From: Pseudovibrio ascidiaceicola
GTDB lineage: Bacteria; Pseudomonadota; Alphaproteobacteria; Rhizobiales; Stappiaceae
DNA length: 64,000 nucleotides
Direction of reading: 5' to 3'
Assembly: GCF_900114245.1 (NCBI RefSeq)
Contig: NZ_FOSK01000005.1
Span: forward strand, 186,001-250,000
In this document: positions 6,455-34,305 of the stretch, one piece after another
How positions within the stretch are numbered: position 1 is the stretch's first letter
Layout of the letters: every line of letters begins with the position of its first letter
Notes under the pieces: generated by a model
Seen by the model: only the letters and a program-made list of their open reading frames with translations
The model's database searches: none
What the model was told of the DNA's origin: nothing
Program-made: the position numbers and the translations under genes

Positions 6455-7326
6455 CCCAGCTCGATACTCTTCAAGCCACCACACCGCAGAAGAAAAAGCT
6501 CCACCCACGGGTCAAAGCTCTGCTTCGCCCTGGGTTCTTGTTGGGCTTCTTCATCCTGTCCTCTTCCATCCTGCTTGCCGTATTCCCATGGGCATTTGCA
6601 CCGTATGATCCCAATGCCTTTGACTTTAATGCGATCCAGAAGTCACCAAGCTGGGCGCATCCGTTTGGCACGGACAATCTAGGCCGCGACACGCTTTCTC
6701 GTGTCATCTGGGCGTATCAGGTGGATATGCAGATTGCGTTCTTCGCCACCTTCTTTGCCATGGTGATCGGCGTGATTGTTGGATCACTGGTCGCTTATCA
6801 CGGCGGCATTGCCGATGTGCTCTTTGGCCGATTGGTGGACGTCACCATCACCTTCCCGTTTCTGGTGCTGGTCATTGCTGTTGTTGCGGTTCTGGGACCG
6901 GGACTGACCAACATGTACGTGGCGGTGACGCTGGTACAGTGGGTCTATTATGCCCGCCTCACTCGTGCAGAAATCATGACGCAGATGACCAGTGATTATG
7001 CCTCCGCTGGAAAGGTGATGGGATACTCCTCCACTCGCATCATCTTCCGACATTTGCTGCCCAACGCCACAACGCCGCTGATCACCTATTGGATGACCGA
7101 TATGGCGCTCGCCATCCTGCTTGGGTCTTCTCTTGGTTATCTCGGCCTTGGCGCACAGCCACCGCAGGCAGAATGGGGCGTGCTGATCGCAGAAGGGCGC
7201 AACTTCATCACCACCGCCTGGTGGATGAGCCTGATGCCGGGGATTGCGATTGTTGTGACTGGGCTTGGATTCTCTCTTGTGGGAGACAGTCTTGCTGATG
7301 TTCTCAGACCACGGGGGGCATCATAA
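6451..7326 (+). CDS. ABC transporter permease, DppC type
   Basis: Second permease, 291 residues. A hydrophilic N-terminal tail is followed by the first membrane helix, the HPFGTDNLGRDTLSRV motif typical of DppC/OppC, and the coupling loop around SAGKVMGYSSTRIIFRHLLP. It overlaps its upstream partner by four bases and abuts the ATPase gene, whose ATG shares one base with its stop. It pairs with the DppB-type permease. Confidence 0.94.
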   Translation: MTQLDTLQATTPQKKKLHPRVKALLRPGFLLGFFILSSSILLAVFPWAFAPYDPNAFDFNAIQKSPSWAHPFGTDNLGRDTLSRVIWAYQVDMQIAFFATFFAMVIGVIVGSLVAYHGGIADVLFGRLVDVTITFPFLVLVIAVVAVLGPGLTNMYVAVTLVQWVYYARLTRAEIMTQMTSDYASAGKVMGYSSTRIIFRHLLPNATTPLITYWMTDMALAILLGSSLGYLGLGAQPPQAEWGVLIAEGRNFITTAWWMSLMPGIAIVVTGLGFSLVGDSLADVLRPRGAS

Positions 7327-8321
7327 TGACCAACCAAAACGAGAGCCTGTTACAGGTTCGCGATCTCACCACCACCTTCCACAGCAAAGGCCGCGTTCTG
7401 CGCGCTGTTGATGGCATTTCGTTTGATGTACGTGCTGGTGAGGTGCTTGGACTGGTGGGCGAAAGTGGCTCTGGTAAATCCATCAGTTTGCGCTCCATCA
7501 TCGGCCTTGCTCGCGACTATGGCACGGTGGAAGGCAACGTTTACTGGAAGGGGGAGGATCTGCTCACTCAAACAGACAAACAGTTGCAGTGCGTTCGTGG
7601 CAGCCAGATCTCGATGATCTTTCAGGAACCCATGACCTCACTCAACCCGCTGCTCACTGTTGGGTTGCAAATTGAGGAAAACCTGAAAGCCCACACCGAT
7701 CTGGACCGCCGCGCCCGCAAAGCACGTGCCATCGAACTGCTGGATATGGTGGGCATCCCCAGCGCGTCATCACGGCTCAAGGACTTTCCGCACCAGTTCT
7801 CCGGCGGCATGCGGCAGCGTGTGATGATCGCCATCGCATTGGCGTCCAATCCGGAGCTGTTGCTGGCTGATGAACCGACCACCGCACTTGATGTCACCAT
7901 TCAGGATCAGATCTTGCAGCTGCTGTTGTCGCTGGCCAAAGATCTCAATATGGCGATTGTGCTGGTGACCCATGATCTGGGGGTCGTCGCACAAACCTGT
8001 GATCGTGTTGCGGTGATGTACGCTGGTCGCCTGGTAGAAACCGGTTCAGTTCGTGATGTCCTGAAACGACCTCAGCACCCATACACACTTGGCCTGCTGA
8101 AGTCGGTACCAGAAAACATGCCACCCCGCACACCGCTGTACTCTGTTCCCGGCACACCACCGGCGCTGGATGCTCTGCCCAAAGGATGTGCCTTCGCGCC
8201 GCGCTGCCACAAAGCGGAGGATGTGTGCCTTGGTACTAAACCACCACTCTCGGTGTTGGGAGATGGAATTTCATCTGCCTGCCATTTCACAGCAGACATT
8301 CGTGAGGAGGTGCTGGCATGA
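7326..8321 (+). CDS. ABC transporter ATP-binding protein, DppD type
   Basis: Cytosolic ATPase of 331 residues. Walker A is GLVGESGSGKS, the signature FSGGMRQRV and Walker B LLADEPTTALD. The C-terminal oligopeptide-transporter extension carries the Cys-containing GCAFAPRCHKAEDVC segment, a site that binds an iron-sulfur cluster in some DppD proteins. It overlaps the second ATPase gene by four bases. DppD and DppF work as a heterodimer. Confidence 0.95.
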   Translation: MTNQNESLLQVRDLTTTFHSKGRVLRAVDGISFDVRAGEVLGLVGESGSGKSISLRSIIGLARDYGTVEGNVYWKGEDLLTQTDKQLQCVRGSQISMIFQEPMTSLNPLLTVGLQIEENLKAHTDLDRRARKARAIELLDMVGIPSASSRLKDFPHQFSGGMRQRVMIAIALASNPELLLADEPTTALDVTIQDQILQLLLSLAKDLNMAIVLVTHDLGVVAQTCDRVAVMYAGRLVETGSVRDVLKRPQHPYTLGLLKSVPENMPPRTPLYSVPGTPPALDALPKGCAFAPRCHKAEDVCLGTKPPLSVLGDGISSACHFTADIREEVLA

Positions 8322-9319
8322 CCTATGAAGCTCCGGTTTTGGAAGTTGAAGACCTTCATTTACACTTTCCGCTCAAAAGAACCCTCTTCGATGCAATTCA
8401 ACGCAAACAAAAACGCATCGTCAAAGCACTCAACGGGGTGAGCCTTGAAGTAAAACGGGGTGAAACTCTTGGCATTGTTGGAGAATCTGGCTGCGGGAAG
8501 TCCACTTTAGCCCGCTGTCTGGCCCGCCTTTATGAGGCAGATGCGGGCAAAATACATTATGACGGGCAAGAGGTTGCGGCCAAGGATGCCGCTGCCTTGC
8601 GAGAGTATAACCGCAAGGTCCAGATGATGTTTCAGGACCCGTATTCCTCCCTCAATCCCCGCATGACAGTGCGACAGGTCTTGAGCGAGGCGCTGCGTGT
8701 TCACAACATGCGGCCACCTGAGCAAATCAATGATCGCATAGCCGAGTTGCTGGACTTGGTGCGCCTGCCGCAAGATGCTGCGGATAAGCTGCCCTACGAG
8801 TTTTCTGGCGGACAACGCCAACGCATTGCTATTGCGCGTGCTTTGTCGGTTGAACCAGAGGTGCTGGTTGCGGATGAACTGGTGTCGGCTCTGGATGTAT
8901 CAGTTCAGGCGCAGGTGGTGAACTTGCTCCTGGAACTGCAAGATAAGCTGGATCTGACCATCTTGTTTGTGGCGCATGACCTCAGACTTGTCCGCCATGT
9001 ATCCCACAGGGTCGCCGTGATTTATTTGGGCACAATTGTTGAAATCGGCGATTCAGAACAGCTCTTCAACGCCCCCAAACACCCCTACTCCAAGGCACTT
9101 CTGGCAGCAGCCCCTTCTCTTGATCCAGACAAGCGCCATACTCGACCTTCAATATCAGGCGAACTGCCCAGCCCGCTCAACGTGCCAAAGGGCTGCGCAT
9201 TCCATGCAAGATGTCCCCATGCCTCGGGGCAATGCCAAAGTGAAACTCCCAGATTGAGGGCATTAGACGAGCTCGGTAAAGTGGCTTGTCATCATGCCGA
9301 AGCTCTTCTATCAGCATAA
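8318..9319 (+). CDS. ABC transporter ATP-binding protein, DppF type
   Basis: Partner ATPase of 333 residues. Walker A is GIVGESGCGKST, the signature FSGGQRQRIAIARAL, and Walker B VADELVSALD, where Leu replaces the usual Pro of DEPVSALD without loss of catalytic Asp/Glu. The C-terminal extension again contains a Cys segment, GCAFHARCPHASGQC. It is translationally coupled to the DppD-type gene and followed after 26 bases by the aminopeptidase gene, so uptake and hydrolysis are co-transcribed. Confidence 0.95.
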   Translation: MTYEAPVLEVEDLHLHFPLKRTLFDAIQRKQKRIVKALNGVSLEVKRGETLGIVGESGCGKSTLARCLARLYEADAGKIHYDGQEVAAKDAAALREYNRKVQMMFQDPYSSLNPRMTVRQVLSEALRVHNMRPPEQINDRIAELLDLVRLPQDAADKLPYEFSGGQRQRIAIARALSVEPEVLVADELVSALDVSVQAQVVNLLLELQDKLDLTILFVAHDLRLVRHVSHRVAVIYLGTIVEIGDSEQLFNAPKHPYSKALLAAAPSLDPDKRHTRPSISGELPSPLNVPKGCAFHARCPHASGQCQSETPRLRALDELGKVACHHAEALLSA

Positions 9320-9345
9320 AACCCCATCACACGATCGAGCTAAAA

Positions 9346-11151
9346 ATGTTGGAAAATCAGAAATTTGAGAGAACCACTGACCGCTTGAACCTCCTGCGAG
9401 ACGAGCTGAAGCGCACCGGATTGGATGCAGTTATCATCCCGCGTTTTGATGAGCATCAGGGGGAATATTGCGCCCCGCATGATGAGCGTCTGGCATGGGC
9501 AACTGGCTTCACTGGCTCCGCAGGTCTGGCGATTGTCACGGTAGATCAAGCGGTTATGTTTGTTGATGGCCGCTACACCGTTCAGGTGCGCAACCAATGT
9601 AGCAGCGAGTTCTTCTCCTACCAGCATATCTTTGATGAACCACTGGAAAATTGGATTTCCACCAATATGAAGGCAGGTCAGCAAATCGGCGTCGATCCGA
9701 TGCTTATCCCCTCAGCTTGGTGGGATCGTTTTGCTGGTGGAGCTAAAGACACAAGTGCCTTACTGGTGGCAACAGCTAGCAATATCATTGATGCAGTCTG
9801 GTCGGACCAACCAGAAAAACCGCTCTCTCCAGTTACGCCGTACTCTCTTGAAAAAGCAGGTAAAACCAGCCTTGAGAAACGGACTGAAATTGCAGCGCAT
9901 CTGAAGCACAAAGGCGCGAAGGTGCTGGTGGAAACCCAGCCCGACAACATCGCCTGGCTTCTAAATGTTCGCGGTGATGACGTTGAGTTCAACCCTATCC
10001 CACATTCCTTCCTGCTGCTAAAAGACGATGGCTCTGCGAGTTGGTTCGTGGATTCTCGAAAACTTTCCAATAGCTTGGATGAGTATGAACTGGAGAAGGT
10101 AGAAACCGCAGACCCTGCCAGCTTCATCAGCTCGTTGGAAAAAATGACCGGAGAAGGAACGCAGGTTCTGATCGATCCGCTGTTCTCCCCCGTCGCAACC
10201 CGTCTTGCTGTTCAGGCTTCTGGTGGTATTCCCGTCATGGAACAGGGTGCGATTACGCTCACCAAGGCTAAGAAGAACGTAAATGAACTCAAAGGGTTGC
10301 GCGACTGTCATGTGCGTGATGGCATTGCATGGACCGAGTTTTCTGCTTGGTTAAAACGGGAAGTGCCGCAAAGAGCCAAGGCAGGCGATCCGGTGCACGA
10401 GCTGGAAGCGGAAGAACGCATTCTGACCGAGCGTAAACGTCAGAAAGACTTTGTTTATCCGAGCTTTAGAAGCATTTCAGCTGCCGCCGGCAACGCTGCA
10501 ATGTGCCATTATGCAGCCACGGATGCCTCCAATACCGCGATCCTTCCTGAACATACATATCTGCTGGATTCCGGCGGCCAGTATCAGGATGGCACTACCG
10601 ACGCGACACGCACCTTTGCGTTCTCGGAAACATCGGAAGAGTTTAAAGCCGCCTACACCGCTGTTTTCAAAGGCTTTGTAGCGTTGGCTTCACTGCGTTT
10701 CCCGAAAGGCACACAAGGCCATCACATCGACGGGTTTGCCCGCAGGCCGCTTTGGGATCTGGGGCTCGATTATGATCACGGTACCGGTCATGGGATCGGG
10801 CACTTCCTCTCCGTTCACGAACAGCCGCAACGCATCGGTAAGCAATACAATCCGGTGGACCTTGTTGCTGGCATGGTAATGTCCATTGAACCGGGATATT
10901 ACGTTGCAAATCAATACGGTATCCGGATTGAGAACCTTTTTGAGATCGTAGAGGAAGACGATGGTTTCCTCGTTTTCAAGAACCTCTCCTACATTCCCAT
11001 TGAACCGCAGATGCTCAACATGGTTGATCTCACCCGTGCTGAAATCAAATGGCTTGGCGACTACAATGCTGATTTGAAACGGGTTCTTGGCCCGGAACTG
11101 AGCCCGGACGCCTATGACTATCTGATAAGTTGTTGTGAACTGCCGGAGTAA
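9346..11151 (+). CDS. Aminopeptidase P / Xaa-Pro aminopeptidase (M24B)
   Basis: Removes the N-terminal residue from peptides whose second residue is proline. It is the long three-domain form, 601 residues, with two creatinase-like N-terminal domains and a C-terminal pita-bread domain. The five metal ligands are recognisable: two Asp in LDSGGQYQDGTTDATRTF, His in GTGHGIGHFLSVHE, Glu in SIEPGYY and Glu in YGIRIENLF. The start at MLENQKFER fits the family better than an in-frame ATG 60 bases upstream that lies inside the ATPase gene. No signal peptide is seen, so it should act in the cytosol on peptides brought in by the preceding transporter. Confidence 0.94.
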   Translation: MLENQKFERTTDRLNLLRDELKRTGLDAVIIPRFDEHQGEYCAPHDERLAWATGFTGSAGLAIVTVDQAVMFVDGRYTVQVRNQCSSEFFSYQHIFDEPLENWISTNMKAGQQIGVDPMLIPSAWWDRFAGGAKDTSALLVATASNIIDAVWSDQPEKPLSPVTPYSLEKAGKTSLEKRTEIAAHLKHKGAKVLVETQPDNIAWLLNVRGDDVEFNPIPHSFLLLKDDGSASWFVDSRKLSNSLDEYELEKVETADPASFISSLEKMTGEGTQVLIDPLFSPVATRLAVQASGGIPVMEQGAITLTKAKKNVNELKGLRDCHVRDGIAWTEFSAWLKREVPQRAKAGDPVHELEAEERILTERKRQKDFVYPSFRSISAAAGNAAMCHYAATDASNTAILPEHTYLLDSGGQYQDGTTDATRTFAFSETSEEFKAAYTAVFKGFVALASLRFPKGTQGHHIDGFARRPLWDLGLDYDHGTGHGIGHFLSVHEQPQRIGKQYNPVDLVAGMVMSIEPGYYVANQYGIRIENLFEIVEEDDGFLVFKNLSYIPIEPQMLNMVDLTRAEIKWLGDYNADLKRVLGPELSPDAYDYLISCCELPE

Positions 11152-11162
11152 TTACGGCTGAC

Positions 11163-11199
11163 AAAAAAAGCCCCACAGAGCTTGAAGCTTTGCGGGGCT
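11163..11199 (-). terminator. Rho-independent terminator of the alcohol dehydrogenase operon
   Basis: AGCCCC/GGGGCT arms with an inner AGCTT/AAGCT pairing, followed on the minus strand by a run of seven T. It lies between the convergent aminopeptidase and alcohol dehydrogenase genes and is oriented for the minus-strand operon. Confidence 0.85.
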
Positions 11200-11223
11200 A
11201 ATCGTGTGTAAGTTAGACAGAAA

Positions 11224-12387
11224 TCAGGCAGACACCTGTTCTCCAATCGCTTCAATGAGCAGAGCTTTCGCAGCTTCCAGCGTAAACTCGACCGGATTGC
11301 CGCCAGCACTTGGATCTTTCACTGCTTCTTCTGCAAGCACGTCAATCTTGTCAGTGCCTACGCCAAGCTCAGCAAGGGTATTTGGCACGCCCATATCCGA
11401 GCGCATCTTCATAACAAAATCAAAGAAACCGTCGAAACCGCCGGGAATATCAAGGTAAGACGCCAGTTTCTCAATGCGCTCTTCAATCTCTGCACGGTTG
11501 AACTTGAGCACAGTTGGCATGATCACAGCATTGGTCAGACCATGATGCGTGTTGTAAACCGCCCCAACTGGATGCGCCAGCGCGTGAATACCGCCAAGGC
11601 CTTTCTGGAAGGCGACAGCACCCATCGCAGCGGCACTCATCATGTGACCGCGAGCTTCGATATCATTCGGATTTGCAACGACTTTTGGCAGATTCTCCTT
11701 CACAAGACGCATGCCTTCCAGCGCGATGCCCTGAGACATCGGGTGGTAGTGTGGAGAGCTGTAGGCTTCCAAACAATGCACGAATGCATCGATGCCGGTC
11801 CCAACAGTGATCATCTTCGGCATGCCAACAGTCAGCTCTGGATCACAGATCACAACGCTTGGGAGAATCTTTGGATGGAAGATGATCTTCTTTACGTGGC
11901 TCTCAGAATTGGTGATCACGCTTGCGCGGCCAACTTCTGAGCCAGTGCCAGCAGTGGTTGGAACAGCAATGTTCGGGTAGATCGCATCCGCGTCAGCCCG
12001 TGTCCACCAATCACCAATATCTTCGAAATCCCAAACAGGGCGCGTTTGACCTGCCATGAACGCAATCAGCTTGCCAAGATCAAGGCCTGAGCCGCCACCG
12101 AATGCAATCACGCCATCATGCCTACCAGCGTTGAAGGCTGCAACGCCTGCTTCCAGATTGATCTCGGTTGGGTTTGGATCGACCTCAAAGAACATGGCAC
12201 GACCAAGGCCTGCCTCTTCCATCACGTCCAAGGTACTTGCGGTCACCGGCAGGCTAGCAAGGCCCTTATCAGTTACGAGCAATGGCTTCTTGATGCCAGC
12301 CGCAGCGCACGCATCGGCCAGTTCCTTAATGCGTCCGGCACCAAAGCGGATGGCGGTCGGGTAGCTCCAGTTTGCTGTCAGAGTCAT
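11224..12387 (-). CDS. Iron-containing alcohol dehydrogenase
   Basis: NAD(P)-dependent group III alcohol dehydrogenase, 387 residues. The nucleotide site GGGSGLDLGK, the TTAGTGSEVG motif and the metal-binding histidines (FVHCLEAYSS and GIHALAHPVGA) are in place. It is the last gene of the minus-strand operon, five bases after the aldehyde dehydrogenase gene, and ends at a clear terminator. With the neighbouring aldehyde dehydrogenase it would take an alcohol to the acid; the preceding glutamine-synthetase-like gene hints at a gamma-glutamylated amino alcohol as substrate (inference). Confidence 0.92.
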   Translation of the reverse strand: MTLTANWSYPTAIRFGAGRIKELADACAAAGIKKPLLVTDKGLASLPVTASTLDVMEEAGLGRAMFFEVDPNPTEINLEAGVAAFNAGRHDGVIAFGGGSGLDLGKLIAFMAGQTRPVWDFEDIGDWWTRADADAIYPNIAVPTTAGTGSEVGRASVITNSESHVKKIIFHPKILPSVVICDPELTVGMPKMITVGTGIDAFVHCLEAYSSPHYHPMSQGIALEGMRLVKENLPKVVANPNDIEARGHMMSAAAMGAVAFQKGLGGIHALAHPVGAVYNTHHGLTNAVIMPTVLKFNRAEIEERIEKLASYLDIPGGFDGFFDFVMKMRSDMGVPNTLAELGVGTDKIDVLAEEAVKDPSAGGNPVEFTLEAAKALLIEAIGEQVSA

Positions 12388-12392
12388 TTTTC

Positions 12393-13775
12393 TTATGCCT
12401 TTTTAAGATGATACGATTTTGGACGGGTCAGGTTCAGGTAGCCGATTTCCGACAGAGCGCCTCCGCGACCAGTATCTTTGCAGCCTGTCCAGCACAGAGC
12501 CGGGTCCAAATAGTCCGCACGGTTCATGAACACGGTACCGGTCTCAATCTGAGCGCCGAGCTTTGCTGCCCGTGCAGGGTCCTGTGTCCAGAGAGACGCC
12601 GTCAGGCCGTAGTGACTGTCGTTCATCAGGCGGATTGCTTCTTCGTCACTCTCCACTTTCATGATGCCGACGACAGGACCGAAGCTCTCTTCGCGCATCA
12701 CTTCCATATCGTGGTTTACATCCACGAGGATTTGAGGTGCGAGGTAAGCGCCACCATCATCTTCCGGGAAAAGGCTTGCGTCGATCATAGGCTTTGCGCC
12801 GTGCTCAACCGCATCTGCGACCTGCTTACGTACCAGTTCTGCAAATCGAACGTTCGCCATAGGGCCGATGGTGGTTTTCTCATCCAGCGGGTTGCCGAGT
12901 TTGTAACCGGAAACGATCTCGACAGCCTTCTTCACGAAAGCATCGTATTTGGAAGAATGCACGTAGATGCGCTCGATACCACAGCAACACTGGCCGGAGT
13001 TGAACATAGCACCATCAATGAGTGTTTCAGCCGCAGCCTCAACATCTGCATCATCCATCACGTAGCCCGGATCTTTACCGCCCAGCTCAAGTCCAAGACC
13101 CGTGAAGGTGCCAGCTGCAGCGATCTCCATCGCACGTCCACCACCAACAGAACCTGTAAAGTTGACGAAGCCGAAATTGCGGCCTGCGATCAGGTGCGAT
13201 GTGGTGTCATGATCAAGAAAGAGGTTCTGGAATACTTCTGCCGGAACACCTGCTTCTGCAAAGGCACTGGCCATACGTTCACCAACCAAAAGCGTCTGAG
13301 TGGCGTGCTTCAGGATCACCGCATTGCCTGCGATCAAAGCAGGTGCAACGGTGTTGATCGCCGTCATGTATGGATAGTTCCAAGGCGCAATCACGAGGAT
13401 GACGCCGTGCGGCTCCTTCTCGATGCGGCGCTCGAAGTTGTCGCTCTCTTCGGCAATGATCGGCTTAAGGCTCTCTTCTGCGATCTTTGCCATGTGAGAG
13501 GCACGTTCGTTAAAGCCGCCGAACTCACCGCCATAACGGACCGGGCGGCCCATCATCTTAGCAAGTTCAGGAACGATTTCGTCGTTCTGTTCACCAATCT
13601 TTGCGACGCCAGCCATCACCAGTTTGATACGCTCTTCGAGTGGACGAACAGCCCACTCTTTCTGCGCAGTTTTGGCACTGGCAATGACGGCTTCTGCTTC
13701 TTTCTGGCTTGCCACCGGACGTTCTGCAAATACAGAACCATCAACCGGCGAAATACATTTTAGTGTTTTTGTCAT
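12393..13775 (-). CDS. NAD(P)-dependent aldehyde dehydrogenase
   Basis: Standard ALDH-superfamily enzyme, 460 residues from the ATG of MTKTLKCISPVDG; a GTG six codons upstream is a less likely start. The catalytic Cys lies in FNSGQCCCGIER, a run of three cysteines with the middle one in the nucleophile position; the general base Glu is in GLELGGKDP. APWNYPY and FTGSVGGGRA mark the cofactor fold. It is placed between the GS-like ligase and the iron alcohol dehydrogenase, so it probably oxidises the aldehyde formed by the latter. I cannot assign the exact substrate. Confidence 0.93.
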   Translation of the reverse strand: MTKTLKCISPVDGSVFAERPVASQKEAEAVIASAKTAQKEWAVRPLEERIKLVMAGVAKIGEQNDEIVPELAKMMGRPVRYGGEFGGFNERASHMAKIAEESLKPIIAEESDNFERRIEKEPHGVILVIAPWNYPYMTAINTVAPALIAGNAVILKHATQTLLVGERMASAFAEAGVPAEVFQNLFLDHDTTSHLIAGRNFGFVNFTGSVGGGRAMEIAAAGTFTGLGLELGGKDPGYVMDDADVEAAAETLIDGAMFNSGQCCCGIERIYVHSSKYDAFVKKAVEIVSGYKLGNPLDEKTTIGPMANVRFAELVRKQVADAVEHGAKPMIDASLFPEDDGGAYLAPQILVDVNHDMEVMREESFGPVVGIMKVESDEEAIRLMNDSHYGLTASLWTQDPARAAKLGAQIETGTVFMNRADYLDPALCWTGCKDTGRGGALSEIGYLNLTRPKSYHLKKA

Positions 13776-13810
13776 GGTCAACTCATCATTCACAGCGTGG
13801 GCTGGTTCTA

Positions 13811-15208
13811 TCAGGCCCGTTCAAACCCGCGTGCAACTTCCCAGTCGGTTACACGGCGGTCATATTCATCCTGCTCGATCTTGGCGGCATGTGCGTAGTG
13901 ATCAATCACATCGCCCCCAAACGCACCACGAAGCATTTCAGATGATTTCATCTCGGTAGCAGCATCGCGCAAGGTCGTCGGGATTTCGCGAGCGCCCTCA
14001 CCTCCATAAGCATCGCCTCTGAATTCCGGCTCCAGCTCGAGTTCGTTTTCGATGCCATCAATGCCAGCAGCAAGCAGAGCTGCCATTGCCAGATATGGGT
14101 TCAGGTCTGCGCCGCCAACGCGGCATTCAACACGCACAGCCTTGGTGCCATCGCCGCATACACGGTAGCCAGCGGTGCGGTTGTCCATGCTCCAGATGGC
14201 TTTGGTTGGCGCAAAGGTGCCAGCGGCAAAGCGCTTGTAGGAGTTGATGTTTGGCGCGAGGAAATAGGTGATGGCACTCGCATGCTTCAGCAAACCAGCA
14301 AGGTAATGGCGCATCATCTTAGACATGCCGTAGTCGCCGGATGGATCGTAAAACAGAGACTCGCCATCCTTGCCCCAGAGAGACTGGTGCACGTGGGAGG
14401 AACTGCCGGAAGCATCATAGTGCCACTTCGCCATAAAGCTGATGCTCTGGCCGTTCTGCCATGCGATCTCTTTACAGCCGTTTTTGATGATGGAATGGCG
14501 ATCTGCCATGTTCAACGCATCGGAATAACGGACGTTGATCTCTTCCTGACCCGCGTCGGCCTCACCTTTGGAACACTCGACCGGAATGTCGGCGCCGTTA
14601 AGGCCATTACGGATGGCACGCATCACGTTCTCTTCCTTGGTGGTCTGGAAGATGTGATAGTCCTCGTTGTACGCAGAAACTGGAGAAATACCGCGGTAAC
14701 CCTTGGCGTGGGCTTCTTCAAAACTCTCTTTGAACAGGAAGAACTCCAGCTCAGTTGCCATGTTAGCGGTCATGCCCATGCCTTCGAGGCGGTCGACCTG
14801 GCTTTTCAAAATGGCGCGTGGAGAATGTGGAACTTCTTTGTGGGTGTGGTGGTCTAGCACGTCGCACAGTACCAGTGCGGTGCCTTCCAGCCATGGAATA
14901 ACGCGCAAGGTGGCAAGGTCTGGCTTCATGACGTAGTCGCCATAGCCCGCTTCCCAGCTTGTGGCCTTGTAGCCATCCGGAGTGGCCATCTCCATATCGG
15001 TTGCAAGCAGATAATTACAGCTGTGGGTCTCTTCCCAGGCGCTGTTCACGAAGAACTCGCCCTGAAAACGCTTGCCCATCAAGCGGCCCTGCATGTCCAC
15101 TTGCGCTGCGATAATGGTGTCTATCTCACCGGTGGCGACCAGCTCGCGTAATTCGTCGAGGGTCAGCTTTCCGGTTCTACGTGTCTTTTTGGTTTCTTCT
15201 CGCAACAT
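13811..15208 (-). CDS. Glutamine synthetase family protein (gamma-glutamyl-amine ligase type)
   Basis: GS-fold ligase of 465 residues. The metal-binding ATELEFFLF, the glutamate/nucleotide-site SGSSSHVHQSLW (standing for GSGMHVHQS) and the C-terminal VECRVGGADLNPYLAMAALLAAG are seen. It departs from housekeeping GlnA and resembles PuuA/GlnT-type enzymes that join glutamate to an amine at the cost of ATP. It lies 34 bases upstream of the aldehyde dehydrogenase gene. With the alcohol and aldehyde dehydrogenases and the amidohydrolase of the same operon, it suggests gamma-glutamylation of an imported amine, later oxidised and released. The amine is unknown. Confidence 0.85.
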   Translation of the reverse strand: MLREETKKTRRTGKLTLDELRELVATGEIDTIIAAQVDMQGRLMGKRFQGEFFVNSAWEETHSCNYLLATDMEMATPDGYKATSWEAGYGDYVMKPDLATLRVIPWLEGTALVLCDVLDHHTHKEVPHSPRAILKSQVDRLEGMGMTANMATELEFFLFKESFEEAHAKGYRGISPVSAYNEDYHIFQTTKEENVMRAIRNGLNGADIPVECSKGEADAGQEEINVRYSDALNMADRHSIIKNGCKEIAWQNGQSISFMAKWHYDASGSSSHVHQSLWGKDGESLFYDPSGDYGMSKMMRHYLAGLLKHASAITYFLAPNINSYKRFAAGTFAPTKAIWSMDNRTAGYRVCGDGTKAVRVECRVGGADLNPYLAMAALLAAGIDGIENELELEPEFRGDAYGGEGAREIPTTLRDAATEMKSSEMLRGAFGGDVIDHYAHAAKIEQDEYDRRVTDWEVARGFERA

Positions 15209-15296
15209 ACCTGTTCCCCGAGGACCCTGTTAAAGCGGCGGATGCCCGTGCCTCTCCTGCATGGCATCACCGACACTGCTTCGTTACTGTGTGGTG

Positions 15297-15323
15297 TGGC
15301 CAGCCCAAAAACCGGGCTGGCCA
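15297..15323 (-). promoter_or_regulatory. Strong intercistronic stem-loop after dctP
   Basis: TGGCCAGCCC and GGGCTGGCCA are perfect ten-base arms around AAAAACC, 17 bases beyond the dctP stop and before the GS-like gene. No T-run follows on the minus strand, so mRNA stabilisation or partial attenuation is more likely than full termination. Confidence 0.6.
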
Positions 15324-15339
15324 ATCTTGGAAAAACAGC

Positions 15340-16395
15340 TTAGCCGTAACGGTAAGGACGACCGGCTTTTGCCATCGCTGCGTTGTATTCCTTCAGGATT
15401 TTAACAACGCGTGCATTACGCTCGGACTTGGCTGCGATCTCATCCCAGAACTTGAGAGCTTCTGTTTCAACAGTTGCCCACTCTTCATCAGGAATGGAGG
15501 TCAGCTCCATCTTCTCGCCCTGTGTGCGCAGCTTTGCTTCGCCTGCCCAGTACCAGTGCTGGCGGTAGTAGTGAGAACTATCCATGCACAGGTTAAAGAG
15601 GGTCTTCAGGTGATCAGGCAGTTCATTCCAGCGCTCTTCGTTGGCAAAGTAAGAGCCAGCCCAAGCACCGGAAATGTTGTTGGTGAGGAAGTAGTTGGTC
15701 ACATCAGCCCAGCCTACAGTGTAATCCTCAGTGATACCGGACCACGCAATCCCGTCCAATTCGCCAGTCTGCATAGCAACTTCAATGTCTTCCCATGGCA
15801 GGGTAACCGGAACAACGCCAAAGCGTGTCAGAAATTTACCAGCAGTTGGGAAGGTGAAGACGCGCTTGCCTTTAAGGTCAGCAAGGCTGCGGATCGGATC
15901 TTTTGTCGCAAAATGACAAGGATCCCATGCACCAGCGGAAAGCCACTTAACGCCTTCGACTTCGTCGTAAGCTTCTTCCCAGATCTCTTTCAGACCCCAA
16001 TGGTTAAACAGGGCTGGAACATCAAGGCTGTAACGGGAAGCGAATGGGAAATAGCCACCGAAAACAGATACGTCTACTGGTGCTGCAATGGAGTCATCAT
16101 CAGACTGCACAGCATCAATGGTGCCGCGCTGCATAGCACGGAACAGTTCACCAGTTGGAACCAGCTGGTCGGCGTAGTACAGCTCGATTTCCATTTCGCC
16201 ATTTGCTGCCTTGTTGAAGGCGTCAATGGATGGCTTGATCACGTGCTGAGCAAGTGCTGCACCAGCATATGTCTGAAGGCGCCATTTGATAGGACGACCT
16301 GCTGCATGAACAGCCGGAGCTGCAAGAGTAGATGCACCAGCAGCGGCGACGGTTGTCAAACCAGCTTTTTTAAGAAAATCACGTCTATTCGTCAT
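15340..16395 (-). CDS. TRAP transporter substrate-binding protein DctP, Tat-exported
   Basis: Periplasmic binding protein of 351 residues. The N-terminus MTNRRDFLKKAG followed by a mild hydrophobic stretch and AVHAAG is a textbook twin-arginine signal, so it is exported folded, as known for some TRAP binding proteins of the FcbT1/2-oxoacid group. The conserved DctP arginine region appears around KDPIRSLADLKGKRVF. The ATG two codons inside the frame is chosen because GGGGA lies just upstream. Membrane partners DctQ and DctM lie upstream in the operon. The ligand cannot be read from the sequence. Confidence 0.92.
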   Translation of the reverse strand: MTNRRDFLKKAGLTTVAAAGASTLAAPAVHAAGRPIKWRLQTYAGAALAQHVIKPSIDAFNKAANGEMEIELYYADQLVPTGELFRAMQRGTIDAVQSDDDSIAAPVDVSVFGGYFPFASRYSLDVPALFNHWGLKEIWEEAYDEVEGVKWLSAGAWDPCHFATKDPIRSLADLKGKRVFTFPTAGKFLTRFGVVPVTLPWEDIEVAMQTGELDGIAWSGITEDYTVGWADVTNYFLTNNISGAWAGSYFANEERWNELPDHLKTLFNLCMDSSHYYRQHWYWAGEAKLRTQGEKMELTSIPDEEWATVETEALKFWDEIAAKSERNARVVKILKEYNAAMAKAGRPYRYG

Positions 16396-16534
16396 ACTCA
16401 ATTCCCCTTGGAATATGAATTTCTGGATCCCTCAGAACCGGTGGACTTTTTATAGCGAGGGGTGTGATTTTTATCTGTCTCCATCCGGAATTCGCTAATT
16501 ACTTCAATGGGTACGTTGATGATGCCTTGTCATG

Positions 16535-17860
16535 TCACCTCGCGTAATAAAGGTTGGGCAGCCAGAGTGCGATTTGCGGGAAGATCGTGACCAGAGCCAA
16601 TCCAAACACCATGATTGCCACGAATGGAATGATGGATTTGTAGATGTCTGTCAGAGAGATCTCCGGCGGCGCCATGGCACGCATCAGGAACAGGTTGTAA
16701 CCAAAAGGCGGTGTCATATAGGCGATCTGACAGGTGATGGTGTACAGCACGCCGTACCAGACCAGATCAAACCCAAGCACTTTGACCAATGGCACGTAGA
16801 GTGGAGCCACAATAACCAGCATTGCAGTGTCATCCAGGAACATGCCCATGACGATGTAGGAAAGCTGCATCAGTAGAAGGATTTCCCATGGGCCAAGACC
16901 AAGGTCACCCACGAAGAAGCCTTCAATCGCACGCACAGCACCCAGCCCATCAAACACTGCGCCAAAGGCGAGAGCTGCAAGGATGATCCACATGAACATA
17001 CAGCTGATCTGAAGCGTTTTCTCAGTTGTGATGTGCAGTAAGCGGAATGTGAGGCGTCGCTTGAATGCAGCTGCCAGTGTTGCAGCTGTTGCACCAACGG
17101 CGGAACTTTCCACGAGGCTGGTCACACCCATCAGAAACAGGCCAGTCATGGCAAAGAAGATAAACAGCGGGATCACGCCGGCTTGCAAAAGGCGGATCTT
17201 TTCGGACCACGTGATCTCTTTGCGCTCTTCTTCAGAAAGGGTTGGGCCCAGTTCTGGCTGAAGGCGGCAACGAACTACGATGTAAAGAATGAACAGCCCT
17301 GCCAGCAGCAGACCTGGAATAGCTCCTGCGAGCCAGAGTTTACCAACCGGCTGGCGGGCGATCATGCCATAAAGAACCAGAACGACACTTGGCGGTACGA
17401 GAATGCCCAGTGAAGAACCAGCCTGAATAACGCCGGTTACCATGACTTTGTCATAGCCACGACGAAGCAGTTCAGGCAGAGCGATTGTTGCGCCGATGGC
17501 CATACCGGCCACAGACAGACCGTTCATGGCTGAAATCATCACCATGAGGCCGACTGTGCCGATGGCCAATCCACCATGAAGGCCACCTGTCCAGACATGG
17601 AACATCTTATAAAGATCTTCGGCAATGCCTGATTCAGAGAGCATATAGCCCATGAAAATGAACAGTGGCAGCGTGAGGAGCGGGTACCACTTCATCAGCT
17701 TCATGCTGGCGGAGAAGGCGATTTCGGAGCCACCATCACCCCACAGCAGAAGGGCGGCGATAACAGCAACGGAACCAATAGCAGCAAAAACACGTTGCCC
17801 GGTCAGGAGCATCAGCATCATGCTGGAGAACATCAAAATTGCGATCAGTTCATAACTCAT
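16535..17860 (-). CDS. TRAP transporter large permease DctM
   Basis: Integral membrane subunit, 441 residues, about twelve helices, which carries the Na+-driven translocation path. Typical stretches are FIFMGYMLSESGIAEDLY, GLSVAGMAIGATIALPELLRRGYDK, LGILVPPSVVLVLYG and TPPFGYNLFLMRA. It overlaps dctQ by four bases and is followed after 139 bases by the Tat-exported binding protein. It forms the membrane part of the transporter with DctQ. Confidence 0.95.
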   Translation of the reverse strand: MSYELIAILMFSSMMLMLLTGQRVFAAIGSVAVIAALLLWGDGGSEIAFSASMKLMKWYPLLTLPLFIFMGYMLSESGIAEDLYKMFHVWTGGLHGGLAIGTVGLMVMISAMNGLSVAGMAIGATIALPELLRRGYDKVMVTGVIQAGSSLGILVPPSVVLVLYGMIARQPVGKLWLAGAIPGLLLAGLFILYIVVRCRLQPELGPTLSEEERKEITWSEKIRLLQAGVIPLFIFFAMTGLFLMGVTSLVESSAVGATAATLAAAFKRRLTFRLLHITTEKTLQISCMFMWIILAALAFGAVFDGLGAVRAIEGFFVGDLGLGPWEILLLMQLSYIVMGMFLDDTAMLVIVAPLYVPLVKVLGFDLVWYGVLYTITCQIAYMTPPFGYNLFLMRAMAPPEISLTDIYKSIIPFVAIMVFGLALVTIFPQIALWLPNLYYAR

Positions 17861-18366
17861 GGCGCAGGCCTCCCAAGGGCGGCGGCCAAGTCCTTAAAGA
17901 ACGTCGCGATTGCCTGAAGCAGCATCAAGAATATTCCAAAACACATAATGGCTTTGATCGGCGCCATAGGTGGTGCCCAAGCCGAGTAGCTTTCCTCACC
18001 GTATTTGACTGCGTATTCCAACGAGGAAAGACCGCCGTAAAGGAGGAAGATGAGGTACAGGATCAGAAGCAGGATGGTCATGACATCCATGGTGGCTTTA
18101 CGCCGAGGAGACCAGCTTCCGTAAAACAGGTCCATGCGCACGTGAGACTGTGTCTGCATGGAATAGGCGCCACCCAGAAGGTAGTAGGCTGCCATGGTGA
18201 ACTGGGCTGTTTCCAGCGTCCAGAGTGGCGGCGCGAAAAAGGTCTTCGCGATTGAGGAGTACAACAGCACCCCCAGCATCACGAAGATGAGGTACATGGC
18301 GAAGCGGCCAACATATTTGTTGATCCAGTCCACATACCTGACGAAAACAACTATTCCCCTTGGCAT
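17857..18366 (-). CDS. TRAP transporter small permease DctQ
   Basis: Membrane protein of 169 residues with four predicted helices (around YLIFVMLGVLLYSSIAKTF, FTMAAYYLLGGAYSM, VMTILLLILYLIFLL and MAPIKAIMCFGIFLML). The motif HVRMDLFY after helix two is typical of DctQ. Its ATG overlaps the stop of the amidohydrolase-like gene by one base and its end overlaps dctM by four, so translation is coupled across three genes. Confidence 0.93.
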   Translation of the reverse strand: MPRGIVVFVRYVDWINKYVGRFAMYLIFVMLGVLLYSSIAKTFFAPPLWTLETAQFTMAAYYLLGGAYSMQTQSHVRMDLFYGSWSPRRKATMDVMTILLLILYLIFLLYGGLSSLEYAVKYGEESYSAWAPPMAPIKAIMCFGIFLMLLQAIATFFKDLAAALGRPAP

Positions 18367-19217
18367 TAATCTACTGCCCTTGCTTTTGTTGTTGCTCCCT
18401 GCCCGCTCACAGTTGTTTCAGCGCTAAACTGTGGCAGGACTTGCAGAATTGCCTCTCCTAACAAGTCTGCAATTTTCTTCTGGTCTGCGCGCTCCGCGAT
18501 TAAGTCGTTGCGAACTTCAATCATAACGTTTAGCAGGCCGCGGGATTGTGCCTGATCAACGAGGGTATGCGTAACCCCGTCTTCCGGCCCATATGGTTCG
18601 TTTCTTTGGATGTCGTAGAGATCCGATGGGCACAGTGCTTCCAGCAGTGCATCGGCAAAGCGGGTATCGCTGTCATGCAGCACACCCACCTCGACGGCTC
18701 TTTTCTTGCCGTTGTAAACCGGTGTGAACGAGTGGATCGTGACCATCACTGGAAGCTGACCCGCCGTATACTTGGCGTCGATCACCTGTTTTACTTCAGA
18801 CTGGAAGGGGCGATAAAATTTGTTGGCCCGGTCTTGCCGCTGTTCATCATTCAACGAAACATTGCCCGGCACCTCGTAGATCTCGCTTTTTTCCGGCATT
18901 GCACTGAGTGCTTCCGGTGGGCGGTTACAATCATAAACGAGGCGCGAAATTCGTTGAGCGACCAAAGGTGCGTTCAGCTTGGTGGAGAGAAGTTTGGCAA
19001 TCGCCAAAGCTCCTGGATCCCAAGCTGCATGGCTGCTTGCAGCTTCTTCACTTAGACCGAGGCCATTTAGGTATGCAGGAATAAACTTGGATGCATGTTC
19101 GCAGATCAACACAACTGGAGCCGTTCCTCCTGTATTGATCGTTTCAACAGTGTCGTTGCCAACAGATTCTATCTGGTCAGTTTTGACTTCAGACAAGAAC
19201 AGTCCCCCCGATTGCAT
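18366..19217 (-). CDS. N-formylglutamate amidohydrolase family protein
   Basis: 283-residue member of the FGase (HutG/HutD-like) family: VVLICEHASKFIPAYLNGLG near the N-terminus and VTIHSFTPVY in the middle match the Zn-hydrolase motifs. No histidine-degradation gene is nearby. I start it at MQSGGLFLSEVK, with AAGGAAA upstream; extension upstream would run through the tandem operator repeats. It leads an operon with a TRAP transporter, a GS-like ligase and two dehydrogenases. A role in hydrolysing a gamma-glutamyl or N-acyl amide in that pathway is plausible but inferred. Confidence 0.82.
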   Translation of the reverse strand: MQSGGLFLSEVKTDQIESVGNDTVETINTGGTAPVVLICEHASKFIPAYLNGLGLSEEAASSHAAWDPGALAIAKLLSTKLNAPLVAQRISRLVYDCNRPPEALSAMPEKSEIYEVPGNVSLNDEQRQDRANKFYRPFQSEVKQVIDAKYTAGQLPVMVTIHSFTPVYNGKKRAVEVGVLHDSDTRFADALLEALCPSDLYDIQRNEPYGPEDGVTHTLVDQAQSRGLLNVMIEVRNDLIAERADQKKIADLLGEAILQVLPQFSAETTVSGQGATTKARAVD

Positions 19218-19263
19218 CTTGTTTTTCCTTGTACTTTCAGTCTTTTTATTCGTAAAAGAGTTT

Positions 19264-19308
19264 CTGAAAGAAACGTTTCCATGGAGACTAGTCTGAAAGG
19301 AACGTTTC
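19264..19308. promoter_or_regulatory. Two direct operator repeats between rpiR and the TRAP operon
   Basis: CTGAAAGAAACGTTTC (19264-19279) and CTGAAAGGAACGTTTC (19293-19308) differ at one base and start 29 bases apart. The core GAAACGTTTC is self-complementary. They lie 33 bases upstream of the rpiR start and between the divergent transcripts, the expected place for RpiR binding. Confidence 0.65.
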
Positions 19309-19340
19309 ACAAAGCCTAAAAACTAGGCAAATATACATAC

Positions 19341-20234
19341 ATGAGGCAGGTGAGAGACGTGAGAGACCCAAATGAACAGACTGTCGCAGAAAAATTACGC
19401 GGACATTTTAATGGGTTAACTCGTGCGGAGCGTCAGCTGGCCGTCTCTTTGCTTGCAAATTATCCAGTCAGCGGATTAGGCAGCGTTTCCGAGCTTGCAA
19501 AATCTGCAAATGTCTCTGGCCCAACAGTTGTCAGAATGGCGCAAAAGATTGGTTTTGCTGGGTTTACGGAATTACAGTCCGCTTTGCGATTAGAGGTGGA
19601 AGAAACAATTTCCAACCCAATCTCCAAACAAGAGCGCTGGACCAGAAATGCACCCGATGCACATATTCTGAACAGGTTTGCTGACGCTGTCATCGACAAC
19701 CTGAAACAAACCTTACAGCAGCTCGACACGCAGGATTTCGATCAGGCAGTGCGTTTGCTGACTGATCGTGAGCGCGCTGTCCACATTGTTGGTGGCCGTA
19801 TTACACGCGCTTTGTCGGACTATTTTTTCACCCATTTGCAGGTGATCCGCGACGATGTGATTGCCATCGCTTCCAACTCAAACACGTGGCCGCATTATCT
19901 CCTGAATATGAAACAGGGTGATGTGGTCGTGGTGTTTGATATCCGAAGATACGAACACGATATTCTGCGATTTGTCGATTTAGCACGTGAACGTGGGGCG
20001 GTTGTGATCGTCTTTACTGATCAGTGGACGTCACCTGCTGCCGTTAATGCGGAGTATGTTTTCAACGCCCGCATTGAAGCCCCGTCAGCTTGGGACAGTA
20101 GCGTTGTCATCATGTTCATTCTGGAAGCTATGATCGAAGCCATGACCACCTCCACATGGAAAGTGACCAAGGAGCGGATGAACACGCTGGAGAACCTGTT
20201 CGACAAGACCAAGATGTTCAGTAAATCCAGCTAG
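19341..20234 (+). CDS. RpiR-family transcriptional regulator (HTH + SIS domains)
   Basis: 297 residues: N-terminal HTH_6 region (GSVSELAKSANVSGPTVVRM, AQKIGFAGFTELQ) and C-terminal SIS sugar-isomerase-like domain (AVHIVGGRITRALSDYF, QGDVVVVFDIRRYEHD). Starts at 19341 or a GTG a few codons later are both possible. It is divergent from the TRAP/ligase operon with two repeat operators between, so it most likely controls that operon. SIS domains usually bind phosphorylated metabolites; the effector is unknown. Its 3' end overlaps the convergent exporter gene by four bases. Confidence 0.92.
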   Translation: MRQVRDVRDPNEQTVAEKLRGHFNGLTRAERQLAVSLLANYPVSGLGSVSELAKSANVSGPTVVRMAQKIGFAGFTELQSALRLEVEETISNPISKQERWTRNAPDAHILNRFADAVIDNLKQTLQQLDTQDFDQAVRLLTDRERAVHIVGGRITRALSDYFFTHLQVIRDDVIAIASNSNTWPHYLLNMKQGDVVVVFDIRRYEHDILRFVDLARERGAVVIVFTDQWTSPAAVNAEYVFNARIEAPSAWDSSVVIMFILEAMIEAMTTSTWKVTKERMNTLENLFDKTKMFSKSS

Positions 20235-21208
20235 TTGGTCTGCTGCTCCGTTGAGCGCGCTGGCAATAGGGCTGGTGCGAAGAATGTCAGGTATTTGAAG
20301 CTCACATAGAGAACAACTGCTATCGCCACATAAAGCTCAATGTGTGCCAAAGCTCTGATCTGCGCGACAAGACTGGCATTCGCACCCAGACTTTCCATCC
20401 ATGTTACCGTTTTAAAGAGCGCTGTTGCGCCAATTACGAGCGGAAATGTGAAGGCAGAAAAGCCCGGAGAAAACGGTAAGCGGAACAAGCGCAGGAATGA
20501 GATGTAAATCAGCGCCGTCATCGCGACAGCAATTCCGCCGAGCACGGCGACCATAATTGGAGATGGATTGCTCGTCAGTGTGAGGTAACCAGCAAGCGAG
20601 AGGCTGGCTGGTGCAGCGAGGATCGCGATGGTCGGTTTGGCTGCATCCGGCACTTCGGCGTGAAAAATCAAACGATAGAGCATCATTGGGAGCATCAGCG
20701 CGTAGGCAACCAGTCCAAACCAGAGCAAAGCGTTTGCAAAGCCTTCAAACATACCGCCGGGAAAAGCAACAGCGGCCACAATGATTCCAACTGGCGGCAC
20801 AAACCAGCTTGGCACCATATGTTGTAGATTGAAGCCTTTTGCGCGATGAAAAATGAACACAGATAAGAACGTGAGATGCAGGGCAATCCCCAACAACCAG
20901 AGCATTTGCCCGATGGCGAAGTTGTATTGCGCGATTGCATAGGAAACGATCATCAGCGCCATAGCGGTTGTCGGGAGCACACTTCCAACAACAGGATGCC
21001 TCAGATCTTCAAAAACCGCAGTGTGCGCAAAAAAGATTTTACCAAGCAAAAGCACTAGCAATACGCTGGAAATCAATGCGCCTGTGAGTTGCAGTGCCCC
21101 TCCAAAATCGCCGGCATTTTCCATCGACCAGCCGAGACTTGCTATCCCTAGGGCGAGACCACCGAGAGGGGCCGGAACGTGAGCCAGTTTGTTTCGAAGA
21201 GTATTCAT
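20231..21208 (-). CDS. TDT-family transporter (SLAC1/TehA fold)
   Basis: About 325 residues with ten hydrophobic segments (for example LQLTGALISSVLLVLLLGKIF and FANALLWFGLVAYALMLPMM). PLGGLALGIASLGWSM near the N-terminus and HPVVGSVLPTTAMALM match the tellurite-resistance/dicarboxylate (TDT) family, whose members move small anions such as malate or sulfite across the inner membrane. The ATG of MNTLRNKLAH is preferred to one 16 codons upstream. A divergent LysR gene lies 155 bases away. The substrate cannot be told. Confidence 0.85.
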   Translation of the reverse strand: MNTLRNKLAHVPAPLGGLALGIASLGWSMENAGDFGGALQLTGALISSVLLVLLLGKIFFAHTAVFEDLRHPVVGSVLPTTAMALMIVSYAIAQYNFAIGQMLWLLGIALHLTFLSVFIFHRAKGFNLQHMVPSWFVPPVGIIVAAVAFPGGMFEGFANALLWFGLVAYALMLPMMLYRLIFHAEVPDAAKPTIAILAAPASLSLAGYLTLTSNPSPIMVAVLGGIAVAMTALIYISFLRLFRLPFSPGFSAFTFPLVIGATALFKTVTWMESLGANASLVAQIRALAHIELYVAIAVVLYVSFKYLTFFAPALLPARSTEQQTN

Positions 21209-21308
21209 CGGAAATGCCAGTAACCTGAGGGTGAGAAGATAAAGTATGCAACTCAAGTTCCTAGCTGATTTGATATGTCCTGAAAATCTGAATATATTGA
21301 ATAGGTCG

Positions 21309-33300: not shown

Positions 33301-34305
33301 TTAGTTCTTGATTTTTTCAAGAATGGACTGACCCCAGTCAGCGCCAACGTCGTTCAGGATCTGTGGCCATACGTCTGCGCGCACTTTCTTGGCCGCCGCT
33401 GCCAATTCATCATCAGAAAGGTTGACGATAGTCGCACCGTAGTCTGCCAGTTTCTGCTCAAACGCACCCTGATCGGATTCCGCTTTGGCCCAACGCTTGG
33501 CTTCAAACTCTTTCGCAGCTTCTACGAGAGCTTTGCGGGAGTTTTCATCAAGACCTTCAAAACGCTCGGAGTTGATGATCAGGTACCAGACTTCGAAGTG
33601 GGTGTTCACTGGGATGTAAGTCTTCGCGACATCACGGAAGGAGGCGTAATAACCTTCAGCACCGGAGCCCACGACGCCATCAACAACACCGGTCTGAACA
33701 GCGGTGAAGGCTTCGGAGAACGGGATTGGAGAGCTGATGTAACCCAGAGCATCTGCAGTCAGCTGGAAGCTTTTGATGCCTGGTACGCGAACCTTGATGC
33801 CTTTGTCTGCGTTTGGATCACCCGGAGCCACCGCATCACGGTTCAGCGCGATACCGCCGAAGTACACCGGATAAGCGGCCAGCATGGTGATGTCCTGCTT
33901 GGCGTAAAGCTCTTTCATTGCGTCGTGGATTGCGCCGCCTGGACCGTAGATCTTTTGCGCCTGCTCCCAGTTTTCAGCCACATACGGGAAGGCACTGATC
34001 TGCATCTTGCGCTCAACAGCAGTTGCTGCTGGCTGTACGGCCATGTCGATAGCGCCAACAGAAATACGCTCTTGTACAGTGGTGTAGTCACCAAGTGCGC
34101 TTGCTGCGAAGATCTTCATCTTCAGGTCGCCATTGGTTGCTTTCTTCAGCTCTTCAGCAAGGTCCTTCACTTCCAGATCAACAGTTGCGCCCTGCGGACG
34201 GATGTGACTGATCTTCAGTGTTTTGGCCTGCGCGACAGATGCTGCACTTACACCACCAATGATGGTTGCCAGCGCGAGGGTTGTTTTCAATGCCTTCAAA
34301 ATCAT
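33301..34305 (-). CDS. TRAP transporter substrate-binding protein DctP
   Basis: 334 residues with a Sec signal peptide ending SVAQA. The mature protein begins KTLKISHIRPQG and has the DctP pattern, including KGIKVRVPGIKSFQLTADAL (conserved arginine) and FSEAFTAVQTGVVDGVVGSG. It is the third gene after dctQ and dctM and is followed by the three dehydrogenase subunits and RidA. The ligand is therefore likely the substrate of that dehydrogenase, an amino or imino acid or opine (inference). Confidence 0.94.
   Translation of the reverse strand: MILKALKTTLALATIIGGVSAASVAQAKTLKISHIRPQGATVDLEVKDLAEELKKATNGDLKMKIFAASALGDYTTVQERISVGAIDMAVQPAATAVERKMQISAFPYVAENWEQAQKIYGPGGAIHDAMKELYAKQDITMLAAYPVYFGGIALNRDAVAPGDPNADKGIKVRVPGIKSFQLTADALGYISSPIPFSEAFTAVQTGVVDGVVGSGAEGYYASFRDVAKTYIPVNTHFEVWYLIINSERFEGLDENSRKALVEAAKEFEAKRWAKAESDQGAFEQKLADYGATIVNLSDDELAAAAKKVRADVWPQILNDVGADWGQSILEKIKN

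Follow-up and report, generated by a model that had tools for sequence, protein, structure and literature searches.

The transporter, ligase and dehydrogenase gene cluster of Pseudovibrio ascidiaceicola very probably is an ethanolamine operon of the published gamma-glutamylation type

Which compound is taken up and degraded by the products of a gene cluster that combines a tripartite ATP-independent periplasmic (TRAP) transporter with a glutamine synthetase (GS)-like ligase, two dehydrogenases and a hydrolase? Such a cluster lies in a 64,000-nucleotide stretch of the Pseudovibrio ascidiaceicola genome (contig NZ_FOSK01000005.1, positions 186,001 to 250,000), hereafter the window, and faces a divergent gene for a regulator of the RpiR type. 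Our analysis indicates that it is very probably the known EtoVWX, gamma-glutamylation-type ethanolamine operon, whose products would import ethanolamine and break it down to glycine. The pathway is already published: the chemistry that a preliminary description had drawn from the sequence, namely TRAP uptake, glutamylation of an amino alcohol, oxidation of the alcohol via an aldehyde to an acid and hydrolysis of the gamma-glutamyl amide, is that assigned to the same gene set in PMC10132767 and PMC9397018. Ethanolamine was among the options of that description, which nevertheless called the substrate unknown, whereas the literature names ethanolamine (PMC10132767).

Based on open reading frames (ORFs) and Pfam/NCBIfam profiles, seven minus-strand genes running from 19310 down to 11224 face the divergent rpiR at 19341-20234, and all eight genes and families given in the preliminary description were recovered (Table 1). 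In gene content and order the cluster, made up of RpiR, hydrolase, EtoV, EtoW, EtoX, ligase, aldehyde dehydrogenase (ALDH) and iron-containing alcohol dehydrogenase (ADH), equalled the ethanolamine operon MED193_10021 to 10056 of Phaeobacter sp. MED193, which is composed of RpiR, gamma-glutamylglycine amidohydrolase (GGAH), EtoV, EtoW, EtoX, ethanolamine gamma-glutamylase (ETAGA), gamma-glutamyl-aldehyde dehydrogenase (GAADDH) and gamma-glutamylethanolamide dehydrogenase (GETADH) (PMC10132767); at the level compared, that of gene names and order, the same eight kinds of genes stand in the same order with no difference. Five proteins of the MED193 operon (hydrolase, EtoX, ligase, ALDH and ADH) were raised in cells on phosphorylethanolamine, and the purified EtoX binds ethanolamine with a Kd of 7.9 μM (PMC10132767). 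Likewise, the enzyme families PF00120, PF00465, PF00171 and PF05013, listed for the C. salexigens enzymes with glycine and glutamate as end products (PMC9397018, table), were all found in the window cluster.

The binding protein, dctP, had its best PDB match in 4uab/4xf5 (E 6.5e-172), with the next PDB match at E 1.2e-14, and was identical to the 4uab chain at 243 of 323 aligned positions. 4uab, presumably Csal_0678 itself, and the ligase match 5dm3 are probably the products of neighbouring C. salexigens genes. TRAP binding proteins of this family normally anchor a carboxylate through an Arg, and the equivalent of this Arg-147 is absent from 199 of 6142 DctP-family sequences (3%), with Phe as the commonest substitute; Csal_0678, which lacks it, binds ethanolamine (PMC4646407). 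By alignment, the carboxylate-Arg column is occupied by Phe182 in the window dctP, as expected of an EtoX-type protein, while Arg was kept in all 15 aligned DctP paralogues of the same genome (15 of its 24 other DctP proteins; 25 matches in total, the operon's dctP included). When the window protein was aligned with 80 relatives (81 rows), Phe stood in this column in 80 rows and Tyr in one. Two further DctP-type genes occur in the window, at 33376-34212 (-) and 55125-55955 (+).

The same chemistry could serve a close amino alcohol as the natural substrate, e.g. alaninol (2-amino-1-propanol), which would be converted to alanine; we regard this as improbable. A propanolamine was among the options of the preliminary description, and one binding-protein sequence is common to the two PDB entries 4uab and 4xf5, the latter presumably an amino-propanol complex. 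Against alaninol stand the 243 of 323 positions shared with 4uab and the MED193 data, in which the 7.9 μM affinity of EtoX was measured with ethanolamine and the operon responded to phosphorylethanolamine (PMC10132767).

The nearest solved structures of the ligase were 5dm3 (E 6e-197) and 11zs (E 2.3e-183); E values of 6e-55 or weaker were obtained for the remaining 35 among the matches listed. Its score fell below the cut-off of GlnA (TIGR00653, 271.2 versus 429.15 bits) and also that of type III GS, and it shared 25-30% identity with the genome's four other GS-type proteins. In GlnA, the Asp of the ‘FDGSS’ motif serves ammonium binding; the column of the ligase group that aligns with this Asp in the genome's own GlnA contained E 14, D 8, S 3, G 2, Q 1, K 1 and P 1 (30 rows), and being mostly acidic and unfixed, it may argue weakly against ammonia as the ligase substrate.

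Degradation of putrescine by a Puu-type pathway, in which ligase, ALDH and hydrolase follow a similar logic, is very unlikely: the ligase does match the gamma-glutamylputrescine synthetase profile NF045547 (GGputSyn), but at 204.4 bits, far below the cut-off of 650 bits, and for this we rejected the reading. Moreover, an iron ADH takes the place of the PuuB oxidoreductase, the binding protein closely resembles 4uab, and the operon hydrolase matches PF05013 only, not the C26/GATase-type (PuuD) family; with the TRAP porter genes present, this bears out the preliminary view of a Puu-like logic with a hydrolase of another family. That the hydrolase is HutG, acting in histidine/N-formylglutamate salvage as the name of PF05013, N-formylglutamate amidohydrolase, would suggest, has just as little probability and was rejected too, since a genome search with TIGR02017 yielded a single protein above the cut-off, at C32:391204 (361.1 versus 278.75 bits), and did not list the window hydrolase. 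The latter had no NCBIfam match at E 0.001, its nearest solved structure was PDB 2odf (‘Hypothetical protein Atu2144’, E 5.3e-80), and the genome encodes four PF05013 proteins, with the HutG-level one on another contig. The Eut pathway was dismissed because no EutB match was detected in the genome (99.82% complete, 5.85 Mb), with E. coli giving a positive control.

For the ethanolamine operon, the ligand, the enzyme steps and the response to phosphorylethanolamine are carried over from published work on relatives. By this analogy, periplasmic EtoX would bind ethanolamine and EtoVW would import it; the GS-like ligase would join it with glutamate at the expense of ATP to gamma-glutamylethanolamide; the iron ADH and ALDH would oxidize the alcohol end, with the amine still masked, to give gamma-glutamylglycine; and the PF05013 hydrolase would release glycine and return glutamate. 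RpiR would govern the divergent promoters via the tandem palindrome.

Several points weigh against this assignment. The function of the cluster in Pseudovibrio is predicted from homology, and the match to MED193, including that of rpiR to MED193_10021, is one of gene names and order; the binding-site check of EtoX covered the Arg column, and D or E still occupies the ‘FDGSS’ column in 22 of 30 ligase rows. MED193 EtoX was also raised without phosphorus (PMC10132767). Regarding the precedent itself, PMC10132767 attributes the pathway as known from other bacteria to Vetting et al. 2015 and describes the genes of C. salexigens and A. tumefaciens as demonstrated to function, whereas the C. salexigens pathway is termed an in silico prediction in PMC6529630 and its steps are called proposed in PMC9397018. 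Finally, in 11 full-length loci of relatives (see below) no GS was found near the transporter, which therefore does not always imply the pathway in cis.

Ethanolamine is a phospholipid head group, and the assignment, if true, would allow a bacterium without an EutB match to convert ethanolamine derived from phospholipids into glycine. Such routes have been argued to link marine phosphorus, nitrogen and carbon cycling (PMC10132767). For annotation, the labels N-formylglutamate amidohydrolase, glutamine synthetase and DctP should then give way to ethanolamine-pathway names for the genes of this cluster.

Table 1. Features of the predicted ethanolamine cluster in the window, and example loci of the second enzyme cassette in relatives
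Feature	Position	Strand	Description
rpiR	19341..20234	+	divergent MurR/RpiR-type regulator, HTH_6 + SIS; PF01418+PF01380
hydrolase, N-formylglutamate amidohydrolase family PF05013	18366..19310	-	predicted gamma-glutamylglycine amidohydrolase (GGAH)
dctQ / EtoV	17857..18366	-	TRAP small permease, PF04290
dctM / EtoW	16535..17860	-	TRAP large permease, PF06808
dctP / EtoX	15340..16401	-	PF03480, Tat-exported, predicted ethanolamine-binding protein
GS-like ligase	13811..15208	-	PF00120; predicted ethanolamine gamma-glutamylase (ETAGA)
aldehyde dehydrogenase	12393..13793	-	PF00171; predicted gamma-glutamyl-aldehyde dehydrogenase (GAADDH)
iron-containing alcohol dehydrogenase	11224..12387	-	PF00465/PF25137; predicted gamma-glutamylethanolamide dehydrogenase (GETADH)
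operator-like palindrome copy 1, TGAAAGAAACGTTTC	19265..19280	.	TGAAA-N6-TTTCC, one mismatch
operator-like palindrome copy 2, TGAAAGGAACGTTTC	19294..19309	.	TGAAA-N6-TTTCA; 29 bp from copy 1
second-cassette example loci	L018:9126-13939, L028:9294-14210, L029:1194-5991		

The spacing of the predicted genes makes it likely that the seven minus-strand genes form one operon, as the preliminary description had claimed outright, although their joint transcription is a prediction. The hydrolase and dctQ genes share one base, dctQ and dctM overlap by 4 bases, and the following gaps are 133 bp (dctM-dctP), 131 bp (dctP-ligase), 17 bp (ligase-ALDH) and 5 bp (ALDH-ADH). The hydrolase ORF was listed from GTG 19310, adjoining the second operator-like palindrome; we infer that ATG 19217 is the likelier start. 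The Tat signal of dctP was recognized by TIGR01409 (25.0 bits versus a cut-off of 16.7). In 11000-20400, the numbers of promoter-like and terminator-like sites were at the shuffle level (6 versus 6.1 and 9 versus 9.3, respectively); a terminator-like hairpin with a T run lies directly past the last gene, at 11191-11167 on the minus strand. Two oligopeptide-type ABC ATPase genes, assigned by judging their translations, and then an M24/aminopeptidase P-like gene occupy 7326-11151 (+) and converge on the last gene of the operon. At the other side, a SLAC1-type anion channel gene at 20231-21256 (-) shares 4 bases of its 3′-end with that of rpiR.

Both palindromes sit between the divergent rpiR and hydrolase genes, and RpiR presumably binds them. 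The pattern TGAAAGRAACGTTTC at ≤2 mismatches had three sites in the window versus a mean of 0.27 in 100 shuffles, the third of which (21365, two mismatches, where a LysR-like gene begins) was taken as chance. Its exact form was found in the whole genome only as the two palindromes at 19265 and 19294; the tandem operators of the preliminary description are thus a pair 29 bp apart that is unique as an exact pair, with RpiR binding being predicted. Allowing ≤1 mismatch, four genome sites were obtained, i.e. the two exact ones and two with one mismatch, and the backward-pattern control gave four as well, so it is the exact tandem pair, and not the genome count, that makes the case for rarity. A repeat search of 19200-19345 returned a single palindrome, overlapping both operators, and no direct repeats. 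Among 30 rpiR-hydrolase regions, the window included, TGAAA-N6-TTTCA (≤1 mismatch) occurred in 19, compared with a mean of 0.74 and a maximum of 4 regions in 200 shuffles. This count is partly circular because the motif was derived from Pseudovibrio and Kiloniella regions that are themselves counted, the other matching regions being the independent part, and its absence at ≤1 mismatch from the remaining 11 of the 30 means that the motif is not universal. It was present at least twice in 7 of the 30 regions, with a spacing of 29 bp both in the window and in L009, of 44 bp in the regions of four Kiloniella and of 42 bp in Sinorhizobium.

To what extent the arrangement is kept in relatives was followed by a dctP scan of genome contigs, in which at least 592 stretches matched and 584 were confirmed; the best 80 were kept as loci, and all counts out of 80 refer to these. 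The five best dctP relatives were Pseudovibrio strains (98-100% identity) that carry the full set of eight genes at 68-100%. The complete eight-gene order occurred in 20 of the 80 loci, distributed over Pseudovibrio, Cohaesibacter, Stappia, Aurantimonas, Nitratireductor, Nisaea, Sinorhizobium, Ferirhizobium and other alphaproteobacteria, so the gene order is not unique to this strain, the finding that the preliminary description had said would count against it. Six further loci keep the order up to the ligase, with the two dehydrogenases not detected; four of these are Kiloniella and one (L024) is a 6.5-kb contig. In one Kiloniella locus (L011:10632-14160), the ligase is followed by genes of a cache-domain histidine kinase and a sigma-54 response regulator on the opposite strand.

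Behind the same transporter, a second enzyme cassette was observed. While 26 of the 80 loci combine the window's GS type with a PF05013 hydrolase, an equal number (26/80) combine another GS subfamily with a PuuD-like class-I amidotransferase hydrolase, and a mixed GS/hydrolase pair was seen in none of the 80. The second GS subfamily, which shares 30.7-34.5% identity with the window ligase, occurs in 35 of the 80 loci, belonging to Halomonas and kin, Thalassospira, Vibrionaceae, and Pseudomonas and kin; the hydrolases of this cassette are relatives of the L018, L028 and L029 proteins (PF00117, with PF07722 weaker). Both cassettes exist within Alphaproteobacteria, the second in Thalassospira and the first in Kiloniella. 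A GS without a detected hydrolase was found in 12 loci. Nine of them have the second GS type and yielded no hydrolase with three amidotransferase queries plus the window PF05013 protein at E 1e-6, one (L067) being a 5.3-kb contig; ORFs were listed in two of the nine, L057 and L022. The three loci of the window's GS type (L021, L064 and L075) are each under 14 kb.

The transporter without a GS found nearby was met in 16 of the 80 loci, 5 of which are of less than full length, in addition to the 11 full-length ones considered above; among the 16, the PF05013 gene was present in 4 and the two dehydrogenases in 2. None of the pathway's enzymes was detected in nine loci (L012, L017, L019, L020, L038, L040, L048, L055 and L056, of which L048 and L055 are short), and their transporter perhaps serves enzymes encoded elsewhere. 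A Pfam scan of four genes near the transporter in L012, L019 and L048 identified ThiC, CorA and complex-I-like proteins.

On the EtoX tree, at least five changes of the GS type and at least four of the hydrolase type were required; the tree was made by a quick method, with 25 of 76 inner branches weakly supported and a long-branch warning. Tentatively, and with some doubt on our side, the two enzyme cassettes may have been exchanged as units behind one ethanolamine TRAP transporter. If both perform the same chemistry, the final hydrolysis would have been recruited twice from different families. An incomplete literature search, which excluded Vetting et al. 2015, found no published account of the two-cassette arrangement; we claim no novelty for it and regard the possible two-cassette design in relatives as a modest new lead.

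Beyond the MED193 operon, three known systems can be compared with the window cluster. The Puu pathway of E. coli likewise masks the amine by a gamma-glutamyl group and proceeds through an aldehyde dehydrogenase to hydrolysis, but differs in its PuuP transporter, PuuB oxidoreductase, PuuD hydrolase and substrate (PMC9397018). In Streptomyces coelicolor, glutamylation of ethanolamine has been shown for GlnA4, and the predicted subsequent steps involve a dehydrogenase, an ALDH and a hydrolase of the formylglutamate-amidohydrolase family (PMC6529630); this pathway differs by its regulator EpuRI (PMC9397018), and no TRAP porter is named for it in the covered text of PMC6529630 and PMC9397018. The C. 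salexigens system has both likenesses, sharing with the window the four enzyme Pfams (PMC9397018) and a binding protein, Csal_0678, that lacks the Arg-147 equivalent as the window dctP does (PMC4646407).

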